This document shows positions 8,622-64,000 of a DNA stretch of 64,000 nt, one piece after another (position 1 is the stretch's first letter; each line of letters begins with the position of its first letter). The position numbers and the translations under genes are program-made. The notes under the pieces were generated by a model. That model made no database searches, had not been told where the DNA came from, and saw only the letters and a program-made list of their open reading frames with translations. Source of the stretch: an uncultured Bacteroidales bacterium (GTDB lineage: Bacteria > Bacteroidota > Bacteroidia > Bacteroidales > UBA932); contig ONRD01000002.1 of assembly GCA_900320185.1 (NCBI GenBank), forward strand, positions 90,241 through 154,240, in the 5' to 3' direction.

Positions 8622-9148
8622 GGATCATCGGCGGACGCCTCGGCGGCAAGACCATAAACCCTCCTCGCGGCTACAAGGCGCGTCCCACCACGGATTTCGC
8701 CCGTGAAGGGCTTTTCAACGTCCTCGGCAACGAGTATGAATTCGAAGGCCTTACCGTCCTCGACCTTTTCGGCGGGACAGGTGCGGTAGCATTCGAATTC
8801 GCTTCCAGGGGTGCCGCAAAGGTGTATTCCGTAGAGATGAGCAGGGACAACGCCACTTTCATCAAGACGGAGGCAAGGCGGCTGGGACTGGACAACGTCA
8901 CGATGGTCCGGGACAATGTCTTCGATTTCATCCCCCTTTGCAGGGAACAGTTCGACATTGTTTTCGCCGACCCGCCTTATGCCATGGAAGGCCTTGAGAC
9001 ACTGCCGGACCGGATCCTCGGGCGCGGCATCCTCCATGAAGGCAACTATTTCATCCTGGAACACGGTCCCGAGCATTCCTTCACCGACCATCCGCGGTTC
9101 AAGAAAGAGAAGCGGTACGGTCGTGTCCACTTCTCCTTCTTCGAATGA
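8618..9148 (+). CDS. rsmD: 16S rRNA (guanine(966)-N(2))-methyltransferase
   Basis: 176 residues, the normal size for RsmD, which methylates G966 of 16S rRNA using S-adenosylmethionine. Visible motifs: [11 protein letters not shown] at the N-terminus, [23 protein letters not shown] as SAM-binding motif I near residues 44-66, and the catalytic DPPY in [10 protein letters not shown] near residues 113-122. The start overlaps the DUF3822 stop. The last 50 bases are overlapped on the other strand by the extended reading frame of the ATPase gene, which I consider an accident of the repeat array downstream. Confidence 0.93.
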
Positions 9149-11084
9149 TCCTGACGTAGACCGGCCTACAAACGGTTTCCGGTCGCATCAGTGTTGTCCT
9201 GAGGACCCTGGCCACCCGCGGCCGTAAGCGGGAGGCGGTACGTGCAGCCTTGGAGAGGGGTGGTATGAAGGAAGTAGTGGATATGCATGGTCGTAAGCGG
9301 TGTTGTCCTGAGGACCCTGGCCACCCTCGGCCGTAAGCGGGAGGCACCGCGCCGTCAGGCGTGGGGGGATAGAGCGAAGTGCATGGACGGTCGCAGGCGG
9401 TGTTGTCCTGAGGACCCTGGCCACCCGCGGCCGTAAGCGGGAGGCACCGCGCCGTCAGGCGTGGGGGGATGGAGCGAAGCGGAAGGTCCGAAGGATAGCG
9501 GCCGAGGGTCCCTGTTATCGTGCGCGTGATTTCGCGCGTGATCGTGCGTGCGGCGGCTGAAGTCGCGCTCTTCACAACCTTCCCCGCCTTGTCCTTGGTG
9601 GAAGTCTTCTTGGAAGACGACTTGCCTGTCACCGCCTCGGAGACGGTGTTGCCCAGCATCGTCGCGACGGTCGCCGTCACGGCTGTGATGATGGCCTTCC
9701 ACACCTTGGACGCTATCCCGTTGGATTTCTTGCCCGGGACCTTTGCGGCCTTGCCGGAAGCCTTCTTCCCTTCTTCTTCGGCCGCTTCCTTCAGCTGTTT
9801 CTCCTTTTCGGCAAGCAGGACTTCGAATGCGCTCTCGCGCTCGACGGCCTTGTCGTATTTGCCATAGACCTTGGAGCCCTTTATCAGCTGGTTCCTCTGG
9901 CCTTCGTCTATGGCGCCTATCTGGGAGAGGGGGAACAGGACCTTGGCCCTTTCCACCATCGACGGGGCTCCCTTCGGATCGAGGAAGGACACCAGCGCTT
10001 CTCCGGTCTCAAGGTTGGTGATGGCTTCGGAAGTGTCGAAGGCGGGATTGGCCCTGAAGGTCTCTGCGGCCACCTTGACGGCTTTCTGGTCCTTCGGGGT
10101 GTAGGCGCGGAGTGCATGCTGCACGCGGTTGCCGAGTTGGCCGAGGATCGTTTCCGGGATGTCGGTGGGGCTCTGGGTGACGAAATAGACTCCTACGCCC
10201 TTGCTTCGGATGAGCCGGATCACCTGTTCGATCTTGTCGGTAAGGGCCTTGGAGGTGTCGTCGAAGAGCATGTGGGCCTCGTCGAAGAAGAAGACCAGCT
10301 TCGGAAGGTCCATGTCGCCGACTTCCGGAAGGGTGCTGTAGAGTTCGGAAAGGAGCCAGAGGAGGAAGGTGGAATAGAGCTTGGGCTTGAGCATCAGCTT
10401 GTCCGCGGCCAGGACGCTCATCACCCCCTTGCCGCCCTCCGTGGCGAGCAGGTCATAGATGTCGAAGGAGGGTTGTCCGAAGAATTTGTCCGCTCCTTCG
10501 TTCTCCAGGGTAAGCAGCGACCTGAGGATGGCTCCGACCGATGCCGGAGCGATGTTGCCGTAGACCTGTGAATACTCCGACGAGTGCTCGGAAACATAGT
10601 TGAGAAGTGACCTCAGGTCCTTTATGTCATCCAGGAGGAGCCCCCTCTCGTCGGCGATGCGGAAGGCGATGTTGAGCACTCCCTCCTGGGTGTCGTTGAG
10701 CCCGAGGATCCTTGTGAGGAGCAGGGGGCCCATCTGGGAGACGGTGCACCTCATCGGATGGCCTTGCTCCCCGAAGACATCGTAGAACCGTACCGGGCAG
10801 CTCTGGAACTGGGGGTCCGCTATCCCGAATTCGGGCATCCTCTTCTCGATGAAGCCGCTGAGGCGGCCGGGCTGGGATATTCCTGAAAGGTCGCCTTTCA
10901 TGTCGGCCATGAAGCAGGGAACTCCTGCCTGGCAGAAACTCTCCGCCATGACCTGAAGGGTGACGGTCTTTCCTGTGCCGGTGGCTCCTGCCACGAGGCC
11001 GTGCCTGTTGGCCATTTTCCCGGTTATCGAAAGCGGACCATTCTCGCAGTGGGCTATCCAAAGCCCGTTGTCTTTGTCGAACAT
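9099..11084 (-). CDS. HerA-like ATPase (DUF853 family) with a repeat-encoded C-terminal extension
   Basis: 661 residues as read. Residues 1 to ~530 are a DUF853/HerA-type ATPase: Walker A GATGTGKT at 33-40, Walker [10 protein letters not shown] at 263-271, then the [30 protein letters not shown] segment typical of the family, a charged helix (~412-440) and a Ser/Lys/Ala-rich tail. Homologues end shortly after the [12 protein letters not shown] element, which here lies at residues 517-528. From about residue 532 (base ~9491) the frame runs through three GC-rich repeat units and then antisense into rsmD, so roughly 130 residues are not family sequence. The original stop has evidently been replaced by the repeat insertion. 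The cellular role of DUF853 proteins is not settled; DNA translocation is inferred from HerA. Confidence 0.85.
9191..9488. repeat. interspersed GC-rich repeat array 1 (three units)
   Basis: Three tandem units start at 9191, 9300 and 9400, each opening with GTGTTGTCCTGAGGACCCTG. Unit 1 (109 bases, type A) contains GCAGCCTTGGAGAGGGGTGG and ATATGCATGGTCGTAAGCGG. Units 2 (100 bases) and 3 (about 89 bases) are type B and contain CACCGCGCCGTCAGGCGTGG. Each unit holds small hairpins: GTCC-TGA-GGAC, CCCGC-loop-GCGGG (one mismatch in unit 2), and in type B CCGCGCC-GTCA-GGCGTGG. The array lies between the convergent ends of rsmD and the ATPase gene and ends in GGAGCGAAGCGGAAGGTCC. The same family recurs at 38133-38540. 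Confidence 0.9.
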
Positions 11085-32744: not shown

Positions 32745-35117
<2,373 letters not shown>

Positions 35118-38132: not shown

Positions 38133-38540
38133 CAGACCCTCTGGCCACCCGCGGCCGTAAGCGGGAGGCGGTACGTGCAGCCTTGGAGCGGGGTGGTGTG
38201 AAGGAAAGAGTGGATATGCATGGTCGTAAGCGGTGTTGCCCTGAGGACCCTTGCCACCCGCGGCCGTAAGCGGGAGGCGGTACGAGCAGCCTTGGAGAGG
38301 GGTGGTGTGAAGGAAGTAGTGGATATGCATGGTCGTAAGCGGTGTTGTCCTGAGGACCCTGGCCATCCGCGGCCGTAAGCGGGAGGCGGTACGTGCAGCC
38401 TTGGAGCGGGGTGGTGTGAAGGAAAGAGTGGATATGCATGGTCGTAAGCGGTGTTGTCCTGAGGACCCTGGCCACCCGCGGCCGTAAGCGGGAGGCACCG
38501 CGCCGTCAGGCGTGGGGGGATGGAGCGAAGCGGAAGGTCC
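38133..38540. repeat. interspersed GC-rich repeat array 2 (four units)
   Basis: A truncated first unit (from about 38133) followed by units starting at 38233, 38342 and 38451. Units 2 and 3 are 109 bases, type A; the last is type B and ends GGAGCGAAGCGGAAGGTCC, identical in layout to the end of array 1. Small differences separate copies (for example GGAGCGGGGTGG versus GGAGAGGGGTGG, GAAAGAG versus GAAGTAG), alternating between units. On the minus strand the array is open in all three frames. It fills the space between the convergent DoxX-like and infB genes; bases 38090-38132 hold nothing recognisable. Confidence 0.9.
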
Positions 38541-50703: not shown

Positions 50704-52005
50704 TTACCTGCGGCCACCTCCGCCGCCACCTCTGGAACCACCGCCGGAAGATCCGCCGCTGGAATGGCTGCCACCGCTGGACGAACCGCCGCCGGAGTAG
50801 CCGCCTGAACTCCTGGAAGAACTGCCGGAAGAGTAGCTGCCGGAGCTGGATGACCTGGAGTAGCTGCCGGAACTTGAAGACCTGTAGCTACCGCTGTTGG
50901 ACCTGGAGGAGGAACTGACCGACGAACTGCTGCCGCCGTTGGACCTGGAAGATGTCGAGGGCCTGCTGTAAGTGGTTCCCGCAGCAGTCGAACGGCTGGA
51001 TGAACCGGTGCTCCTTGCGGAGGAACTCCTTACTGTGGAGGAGGTTCCGGCGGTAACTCCCGAATTGGAGCGGGATGCCGTCTGGCCCTGCCTCCGGGCT
51101 ACGCTGGATGCAGATGTCCTGTTGGAGGAAGAGACTGCGCTGGACCTTGAAGCCCTTGCGGTCGATGACGACCTGGTGGCAGATGTCCGTGAGGCGGCTC
51201 CTGCCCTGTCGCGTACGGTGGAAGAACTCCTTGTGCCGGCAGACCTTGAGACGGCGCCGATGCCGCTCCTGCGTGCCGAACCTGTAGTGGTGTTGCGGGC
51301 TACATGCACCCTGTCGTTCCCGAAGCCGAACGCTCCGTGCCCGAAGTGGTGGTGTGCTCCGCCGTACCAGCCGCCGTACCATCCGCTATGCCACGGGCTG
51401 TACCATCCGCCGTAGTACCAAGGGTCGTAGAACCAAGGGTCATACCAACCTCCGTAATACCAGGGATCGTAGTACCAGTGGCTGTACCAACCACCGTACC
51501 ATCCGCCGTAGTACCAGGGGTCGTAGTACCACGGGCTGTGCCAGCCGTAGTAGCCGTAGCGCCACGGGCTGTACCATCCGCCGTAGTACCAGGGATTGTA
51601 GCCCCAGGAATAGAAAGGAGAGCCCCAGCCGTACCACGAAGCCGAGTACCATGGCTGATAGGCCGCCCAGGTGTTCCATCCGTCGTTGTCGTAGAGGAAC
51701 ACTGAAGTCAGGCTGTCCTTCTTGTTGAAATCTATTCTGGCTACCTTGTCCTGAGGGATGAACAGGGTGTCGACTTTCTCTCCGCTCTTCATGAAGATGG
51801 GTGAGTTTTTCGTCTTGGCCACAAGATAATCGGTCTCTTCCATGTCGCTGGAAGCTACGACCGCTTCGCCGTTTGAAGTTTTAGGGGTATAGTAGATCCC
51901 GTCTTGAAACCTCTGGTCGGAGGAGTCAATAGCGTACTGCGCTGCTGAACCGCACGAAGTCAGTGCCAGAAGCGCCGAGATAAAGATTGTTGTGCGTGTT
52001 TTCAT
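50704..52005 (-). CDS. lipoprotein with Trp/Tyr/Gly-rich and Ser/Arg-rich low-complexity regions
   Basis: 433 residues from ATG 52005 with a lipoprotein signal (LLALTSCGSAA, Cys ~18). Residues ~20-110 are a normal domain (IYYTPKTSNGEAVVASSD, VDTLFIPQDKVARIDFNKKD). Residues ~115-215 are imperfect repeats of DPWYYGGWY-type units with about ten copies of PW-Y and GGWY. The rest (~220-433) is Ser/Thr/Arg/Gly-rich and ends in Gly-Gly-Gly-Arg-Arg. Such proteins occur in Bacteroidota as surface lipoproteins of unknown role; the aromatic block suggests a sticky or matrix-forming surface and the basic tail may bind nucleic acid or glycans. Extending the frame to 52119 would add 38 residues without family support. 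Confidence 0.75.
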   Translation of the reverse strand: MKTRTTIFISALLALTSCGSAAQYAIDSSDQRFQDGIYYTPKTSNGEAVVASSDMEETDYLVAKTKNSPIFMKSGEKVDTLFIPQDKVARIDFNKKDSLTSVFLYDNDGWNTWAAYQPWYSASWYGWGSPFYSWGYNPWYYGGWYSPWRYGYYGWHSPWYYDPWYYGGWYGGWYSHWYYDPWYYGGWYDPWFYDPWYYGGWYSPWHSGWYGGWYGGAHHHFGHGAFGFGNDRVHVARNTTTGSARRSGIGAVSRSAGTRSSSTVRDRAGAASRTSATRSSSTARASRSSAVSSSNRTSASSVARRQGQTASRSNSGVTAGTSSTVRSSSARSTGSSSRSTAAGTTYSRPSTSSRSNGGSSSSVSSSSRSNSGSYRSSSSGSYSRSSSSGSYSSGSSSRSSGGYSGGGSSSGGSHSSGGSSGGGSRGGGGGGRR

Positions 52006-63159: not shown

Positions 63160-64000
63160 AATGATTGTGATTTGCTTATAAATAGTAGGTTCAGTAAGAA
63201 AAGTATAGGGAAATGCTTGCTGGTCTCGAAAACTTTGTACCTTTGCTTAAGCATTGTCAGATTATCCACTTTAGGTGGTTATAGTCCGAAATCTAAAGGT
63301 ATTTCAGCCCACACTGGAATGCCTTTTCTCATTGAAAGAGAGCCGCAGGGGTACTTCTTACATCTCCCGAAAATCTTTTACGGACTCAAAATCTATGAAA
63401 TGAAAACAGAAAAGATTATTCGTTAATTAACATATATGCACGGCCGAGCGCCCGGTTATTTTGTAGGTTACGACGGTTCGGCTGGGCAACCCAGTAAGCC
63501 TCGGGGAAGGCTGCCCAGCCTCGGGCTCCGGGCTCGAGTCTCGTTTTCCGCTCCAATGAGAGAATCGGACCTATAAAGAGAGTCATCGGCAGGTTGAACC
63601 TGCATCAGAATGACATGAGACCGTCATTATGAGCGAAGCTGACATTCTTAGCGACGTTGTCATTTGAGCGAAGCGAAGAATCTGAATATCTTGGGGTGTC
63701 CTGGCCAGCTTACTTTCAAATAGCTAACACGCTCTAAAAAGACAAGCACCTCATTATTAACACATTACAAAACGGCAGCGTGTGAAGGTATCCCTAAAGA
63801 ACGGCACCCTAACACGCTAACAAAACTTAACGTATTGGTTAACAGCTGTTTCTGACAATCAAGCGTGTGAGCCATTTGAAAATGTGGGGCTCGGCGGCTA
63901 CGGCTCGCCGCTGCGGTGGGCTCCATAAAATGGCCCTCCTCGCGGCGGCCGTCACCAACCACAAATGTCACAATCACCAACCATTTTTGTCAATTATACC
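63160..64000. other. AT-rich island end with repeats, no clear gene
   Basis: No convincing coding frame. It holds a promoter-like TACCTTTG at 63238-63245 followed by a short unclear ORF (63321, 35 codons); a 9-pair stem GGCTGGGCA/TGCCCAGCC (63480-63488 with 63512-63520) and, after it, GGCTCGAGTCTCGTTTTCCGCTCC, which looks like a tRNA 3' end; two copies of a GTCATT..GAGCGAAGC motif at 63623 and 63659; and four CACGCT/AGCGTG half-sites at 63727, 63777, 63813 and 63862. A GC-rich palindromic block (about 63888-63950) is followed by two CACCAACCA direct repeats. This may be the edge or origin region of the mobile element. Confidence 0.5.

Follow-up and report, generated by a model that had tools for sequence, protein, structure and literature searches.

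Bacteroidales genomes carry a family of roughly 130-bp foldback elements, probably mobile, with paired locus-specific arms and a core that is often inverted between species

The window that we analysed, a 64-kb stretch of DNA from an uncultured Bacteroidales bacterium, carries two tandem arrays of a short repeat. What is this repeat, and how did it come to lie at these two places? The arrays occupy 9191-9489 (array 1) and about 38133-38540 (array 2), and Tandem Repeats Finder detects both of them (95% and 94% matches, respectively). Their parts, and the open reading frame (ORF) that runs through array 1, are given below.

9099-11084, minus strand: HerA-like ORF, extended through array 1 by about 130 residues; Pfam HerA_C matches up to residue 529 of 661
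9191-9299, plus strand: A unit 1 of array 1, 109 nt, with a 5′ arm half, a core and an altered second half
9300-9399, plus strand: B-type internal unit of array 1, 100 nt, without a 3′ arm
9389-9416, plus strand: 5′ arm of the array 1 terminal element (GGTCGCAGGCGGTGTTGTCCTGAGGACC)
9417-9489, plus strand: core of the array 1 terminal element, with helices in pseudoknot order (about 9419-9441), a variable hairpin, the GCGAAGC mini-hairpin and the 3′-arm start GGTCC
about 9490-9513, plus strand: putative degenerate remnant of the array 1 3′ arm (GAAGGATAGCGG...)
38133-38232, plus strand: partial A unit of array 2
38233-38341, plus strand: A unit of array 2, 109 nt
38342-38450, plus strand: A unit of array 2, 109 nt
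38440-38467, plus strand: 5′ arm of the array 2 terminal element (GGTCGTAAGCGGTGTTGTCCTGAGGACC)
38468-38540, plus strand: core of the array 2 terminal element; the 3′ arm after GGTCC is absent

The units start with GTGTTGYCC at 9191, 9300 and 9400 in array 1 and at 38233, 38342 and 38451 in array 2, where a partial first unit lies 5′ of 38233. The resulting spacings, 109/100 and 109/109 nt, agree with the A units of about 109 bases and the 100-base B unit of a first-pass annotation. Both arrays close with the same sequence, GGAGCGAAGCGGAAGGTCC (9471-9489 and 38522-38540), as expected from the constant terminal unit described there. The single-base differences said to alternate between units are also real: units 1 and 3 of array 2 have GAGCGGGG..GGAAAGAG in common, while unit 2 has GAGAGGGG..GGAAGTAG in common with the A unit of array 1. 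Both arrays had further been placed between convergent gene ends. This is correct at 38 kb, where a MauE-domain gene on the plus strand faces infB on the minus strand, but not at 9 kb. There, the HerA-like ORF is antisense to array 1 and continues through it, and the 3′ end of that gene has thus been overwritten. In a relative, the HerA-like gene closes with a stop at the corresponding place. The array 1 site, which lies between rsmD and the HerA-like gene, has other contents in relatives: in G020 (L108) it is occupied by a hairpin of another kind, whose core differs, and in G017 (L109) by one lone element that points the other way.

Scanning Rfam, we found no family at the gathering threshold in the window; the elements at the loci tried gave only matches far below the gathering score. 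The window also contains a second, MITE-like repeat at 63675-63889 (TTTTCAAATAGCTAACACGC ... GCGTGTTAGCTATTTGAAAA, roughly 190-215 bp), with similarity to 10 other array loci fetched from the same genome. Other tandem repeats lie at 34906-35017 (60 nt) and 51358-51498 (42 nt).

Using 212 bases from array 2 as a BLAST query, we searched the bacterium's own genome (2.28 Mb, 49 contigs, 92.8% complete). The search returned 62 matches, which we grouped into 35 sites, several of them close to contig ends. The repeat is therefore interspersed, as had been proposed, and extends well beyond the two arrays of the window. An alignment of 28 own-genome copies gave the order GGTCGTAAGCGGTGTTGTCCTGAGGACC - CTGGCCACCCGCGGCCGTAAGCGGG - variable hairpin - GGGATGGAGCGAAGCGGAA - GGTCCGAAGGACAACACCGCTTGCGACC, in which the last part, GGTCCGAAGGACAACACCGCTTGCGACC, is the complement of the first, GGTCGTAAGCGGTGTTGTCCTGAGGACC. 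A full element thus measures about 130 nt and consists of a conserved core between two arms of 22-30 nt. This anatomy corrects the first-pass annotation. The unit does not end at GGTCC, since elsewhere in the genome about 22 nt more follow, forming a 3′ arm that is the complement of the 5′ one; A and B are variants of one foldback element instead of two repeat kinds with three small hairpins each.

In the arrays of this genome, the 3′ arm is present in the last unit and missing from the internal ones; in the window, it is degenerate (array 1) or absent (array 2). The 3′ part is itself repeated at some sites (L066), and one arm lineage is common to the copies within the genome. We classified the context of 23 own-genome sites and found 9 convergent, 6 codirectional, 2 genic, 6 unclassified and no divergent ones. 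The family is not confined to convergent intergenic sites. On the 3′ side of many arrays (e.g. L045, L046, L054 and L057) lies a C/A-rich, G-poor stretch followed by a repeated terminator-like hairpin, AAAAAGAGGATGACCTCC....

We then looked at relatives. A covariance model built on the own-genome copies (R1), with up to 33 candidates scored per genome, matched in 84 of 101 genomes of the genus. In the copies found with it the core is kept, and the arms are quite different at each locus. A second model (R2) matched in 35 of 99 genomes of the family, spread over 11 of 25 genera, and under strict filters in 5 of 295 genomes of the order, the own genome included. A pattern scan of named genomes found at least 120 stretches. 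Among the matches listed there were 80 titles, 78 of them Bacteroidales or Bacteroidia; the remaining two were Candidatus Cryptobacteroides choladohippi and one labelled Lachnospiraceae. The window's own genus is presumably Cryptobacteroides. At the sensitivity used, viral contigs gave no match to the element pattern, and plasmids and phages gave none to one own-genome copy. Genome G016 carries many copies of a longer subfamily of 159-174 nt (L344-L369), nearly all outside genes.

The differing arms raise the question of whether the two arms of one element belong together. The MAFFT arm registers were too noisy for column counts, and we therefore scored the arms element by element. In 46 elements (three without a recognisable end left out), the arms of the same element reached a mean score of 21.0, compared with 6.07 in 2070 swaps. 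In a larger set, the values were 20.8 and 6.3, and 87% of 259 parsed elements (four unparsed ones left out) lay above the 99th percentile of the swaps. The arms are thus specific to their locus yet mutually complementary. A shared arm consensus is weak, at 10.0 bits compared with 1.66 for shuffled arms (149 elements; G016 left out, as were 49 of 223 that could not be parsed). Carrying this weak common pattern, the arms belong to the element and descend from it, not from each target.

In the core, a helix S1 of up to 7 bp and a helix S2 of 5 bp are ordered as in an H-type pseudoknot; a hairpin of variable length and the GCGAAGC mini-hairpin come next. Full pairing of S2 is seen in 216 of 259 elements and involves 9 types. 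In a swap control, 43% of the swapped S2 pairs also matched, because a single type, CCCTC/GAGGG (154 elements), dominates. This weakens the support for S2, which rests on the 9 fully paired types together with the inner S1 types: GGCC/GGCC (140), GTCC/GGAC (23), TGCC/GGCA (22) and AGCC/GGCT (16) among the 259 elements. From this covariation, pseudoknot folding of the element RNA is predicted; the form in which the element works may be RNA or single-stranded DNA. The proposal that the core is always more conserved than its flanks was rejected: in orthologous pairs, mean core identity was below flank identity (81.6 vs 86.4%, n = 20; 69.6 vs 75.5%, n = 30).

Many copies outside the own genome lie inside genes. 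The first case was an aminotransferase gene in which two orthologous loci are filled (L145 and L152) and a third is empty (L250). A homologous ORF matched both sides of the element for 71 of 270 elements (263 distinct sequences), at genic loci in at least 21 protein clusters. In all 71, the two sides are in one reading frame, with none shifted; three have a stop in frame, and the best match in these is an ORF antisense to the real gene. An earlier homolog test had given insertions in multiples of three in 17 of 19 cases, the other two (L109 and L239) being intergenic. Relative to the host gene, both orientations of the element are found. Using NCBIfam, we recognised a first set of host genes (aroB, tilS, recG, a PLP aminotransferase-like gene, ugd, uvrA, rsmH, atpG, trmB and mtaB) and a second one (yggS, truB, metG, an rlmB-like gene, truA, dapF, an argE-like gene, folC and an rlmL-like gene). 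Family matches were found in 19 of the 20 host proteins scanned; L201 had none there and a Pfam glycosyltransferase match in another scan. In several host proteins the NCBIfam match stops at the element, and in others it resumes past it. Alignments to known structures break exactly at the element in RecG (1gm5; 502 to 550 vs 517 to 519), Ugd (3phl; 162 to 213 vs 197 to 203) and YggS (5nlc; 129 to 186 vs 133 to 142).

How frequent the genic copies are depends on the genome and, to some extent, on the gene caller: 10 or 12 of 19 in G105, 8 or 13 of 27 in G121 (1 of 28 matches left out) and 1 or 0 of 36 in G016 (2 of 37 matches left out). The genic fraction is thus about one third to two thirds in G121 and G105. 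By a looser measure, 77 of 147 records, duplicates included, lie in long open frames. Open frames per element amount to 48%, compared with 35% in shuffles, which is only a mild stop poverty. The genic elements are probably translated, as an insert of 40-60 residues. An insert removed at the RNA level, like an intron, or bypassed at the ribosome could also account for a structured core with helices in pseudoknot order inside conserved genes; such removal would not require the frame to be kept, as it is in 71 of 71 cases, and we consider this explanation extremely improbable.

Comparing orthologous loci, we found an empty site for 26 element records. In one clean comparison, L222 (empty) and L194 (filled) share 89% flank identity, and both arms are missing from L222 along with the core. 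No clear target-site duplication was seen at this one clean empty site. Insertion into pre-existing terminator hairpins was rejected, as the empty sites lack the arms and the elements inspected have no T-tract behind their arms. With many of the insertions being old and shared, there are only indirect signs of recent movement.

Of 23 orthologous sites, not all of them genic, 12 show an inversion of the core between species. We compared the orientation in 91 orthologous pairs that are not identical: it is the same in 47 and opposite in 44. These pairs are not independent of one another, and some contain gaps of more than 250 nt. In one yggS-like gene, L204 and L246 have 88% identical flanks, and core plus inner arms become identical after reverse-complementing one of them. 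L173 and L281 are opposite in orientation at 98% flank identity, with different cores. Inversion of the segment was seen between species only, in assemblies; it may also take place within living populations. This pattern recalls the intragenic invertons of gut bacteria, in which inverted repeats surround a flipped segment inside genes. If the elements were such invertons, a site-specific invertase would flip the segment and vary proteins within a population. Inverted arms inside genes, the L173/L281 inversion at such close flank identity and the occurrence of both orientations, open in frame, at one gene site (recG L144/L300, yggS L204/L246, uvrA L175/L333, truB L179/L212) would fit. We still hold this to be quite unlikely: the arm consensus between loci is weak, unlike a recombinase site, the host genes are housekeeping and not surface genes, and the orientations are known from assemblies alone. 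The elements share with invertons the inverted repeats that flank a flipped segment within genes; they differ in a core that is conserved and repetitive, and in an inversion seen between species.

One may also ask whether the element is a conserved regulatory or structural RNA that acts as a stabiliser of 3′ UTRs or as a bidirectional terminator, and that was duplicated and retained because it serves the cell. Its stem and core helices covary, its own-genome sites are often convergent (9/23) and never divergent (0/23), and the C/A-rich stretch with the terminator-like hairpin often follows it in that genome. Set against this, coding sequence contains many copies, pointing either way, orientation is not conserved, and the arms examined are not followed by a T-tract. 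We regard a kept RNA as highly doubtful.

Next, what could move the element? A linked RAYT, which the first-pass annotation had suggested looking for, was not found in the own genome, where PF01797 (Y1_Tnp) is absent and a related genome's Y1 protein, used as a query without a positive control, returned nothing. Across the genus, divergent Y1/RAYT-like proteins occur in 81 of 101 genomes, at one to eight per genome and mostly of about 290-350 aa (loci L370-L389). An ordinary REP/REPIN population moved by RAYT transposases would agree with the association between Y1_Tnp and the element: Y1 is present in 76 of the 84 genomes with elements and in 5 of the 17 without them (76/8/5/12; Fisher p = 4e-7, kinship ignored). 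However, the own genome (34 model matches) and G014 (14) bear elements with no Y1 match, and a linked RAYT was rejected, as no element lies in 20 Y1 loci (about 1.5 kb each side). Size, arms and intragenic position are also unlike those of REPs, and we find this explanation unlikely. A trans-acting HUH enzyme is the leading candidate for the mobiliser, and a Y1/RAYT-like transposase would be best placed for this role.

Altogether, we favour, with a probability of roughly three in four, a family of foldback elements that are mobile and about 130 bp long, with paired locus-specific arms and a structured core, inserted whole, in which the core flips over evolution. The family, its arms, covariation, in-frame insertion into genes, empty sites and between-species inversion were all established by comparing sequences. 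Copies entered as a whole, arms and core together, between genes or in frame within coding genes. After insertion, the arms would diverge fast and yet remain paired. On an evolutionary time scale the core would flip between them, probably because the foldback recombines or undergoes template switching. One arm lineage would have multiplied in the own genome, and repetition of the 5′-arm-plus-core unit would have produced tandem arrays, the last element of which bears, or formerly bore, a 3′ arm. The tandem amplification and the undescribed family proposed at first pass are both supported. Several observations count against the mobile foldback explanation: the age of many insertions, which leaves recent movement visible only indirectly; the stop in three of the 71 in-frame pairs, each with a best match antisense to the real gene; the near lack of genic copies in G016; the lack of a mobiliser in an own genome with many copies, along with the lack of elements near the 20 Y1 genes; the lack of a clear target-site duplication at the clean empty site; and a core that on average is not more conserved than its flanks.

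Among known systems, the closest parallel appears to be the Rickettsia palindromic elements (RPE); the likeness is one of described features, and we do not claim membership. RPE are 100-150 bp long, lie in frame within genes at the same site in orthologs, and occur in Wolbachia (WPE) too, as described in the accessible parts of PMC10969869 and PMC3767692. Compared with those accounts, the Bacteroidales elements are likewise palindromic, of 100-150 bp and in many copies, and likewise sit in frame in unrelated metabolic or housekeeping genes, with the frame intact and at the same ortholog sites. Unlike the RPE of these partial accounts, they have locus-specific arms and a conserved core in pseudoknot order, a core orientation that flips at the same site, and tandem arrays with a terminal unit. 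The host differs as well, being Bacteroidota; no Rickettsiales title was among the matches listed.

MITEs are short non-coding foldback elements, intergenic and intragenic, without a transposase of their own (PMC10969869, accessible part), and as far as described there our elements share all of these: short foldback, both locations and no own transposase. Unlike MITEs, their arms differ between loci, and we found no conserved terminal inverted repeat common to an insertion sequence. With REP/REPIN, as covered in the source portions available, they share multi-copy palindromic DNA and the co-occurrence of Y1 transposases in the genus; they differ in being about 130 nt long and often genic, with arms that are not conserved and no linked RAYT at the loci tried. 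BOX and ERIC elements are modular or imperfect palindromes of similar size. Compared by description only, they resemble our elements in size and palindromic build, and are unrelated in sequence and host as far as known. No publication naming the family was found in the literature on such elements in Bacteroidetes or Cryptobacteroides, in which subscription journals were thinly covered.

In-frame palindromic elements in genes are known from Rickettsia and Wolbachia, and the present family adds a second, unrelated phylum and a large gut genus. A second phylum makes testable how such elements move, why enzymes tolerate them and whether they give rise to new protein sequence. Paired locus-specific arms and frequent inversion offer handles for this that the accessible text of PMC10969869 and PMC3767692 does not mention for the Rickettsia elements. 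A bolder possibility, which we rate as speculative and rather improbable, is a genome-wide reversible recoding derived from a selfish palindrome. Dozens of stop-free invertible inserts would then sit in housekeeping genes, and core inversion would swap one insert of 40-60 residues for another (in enzymes such as RecG, UvrA, YggS and TruB). Translation may in addition be tuned by the pseudoknot-type core in the mRNA. For the gut metagenome-assembled genomes concerned, the gene calls and protein models include foreign inserts of 40-60 residues.
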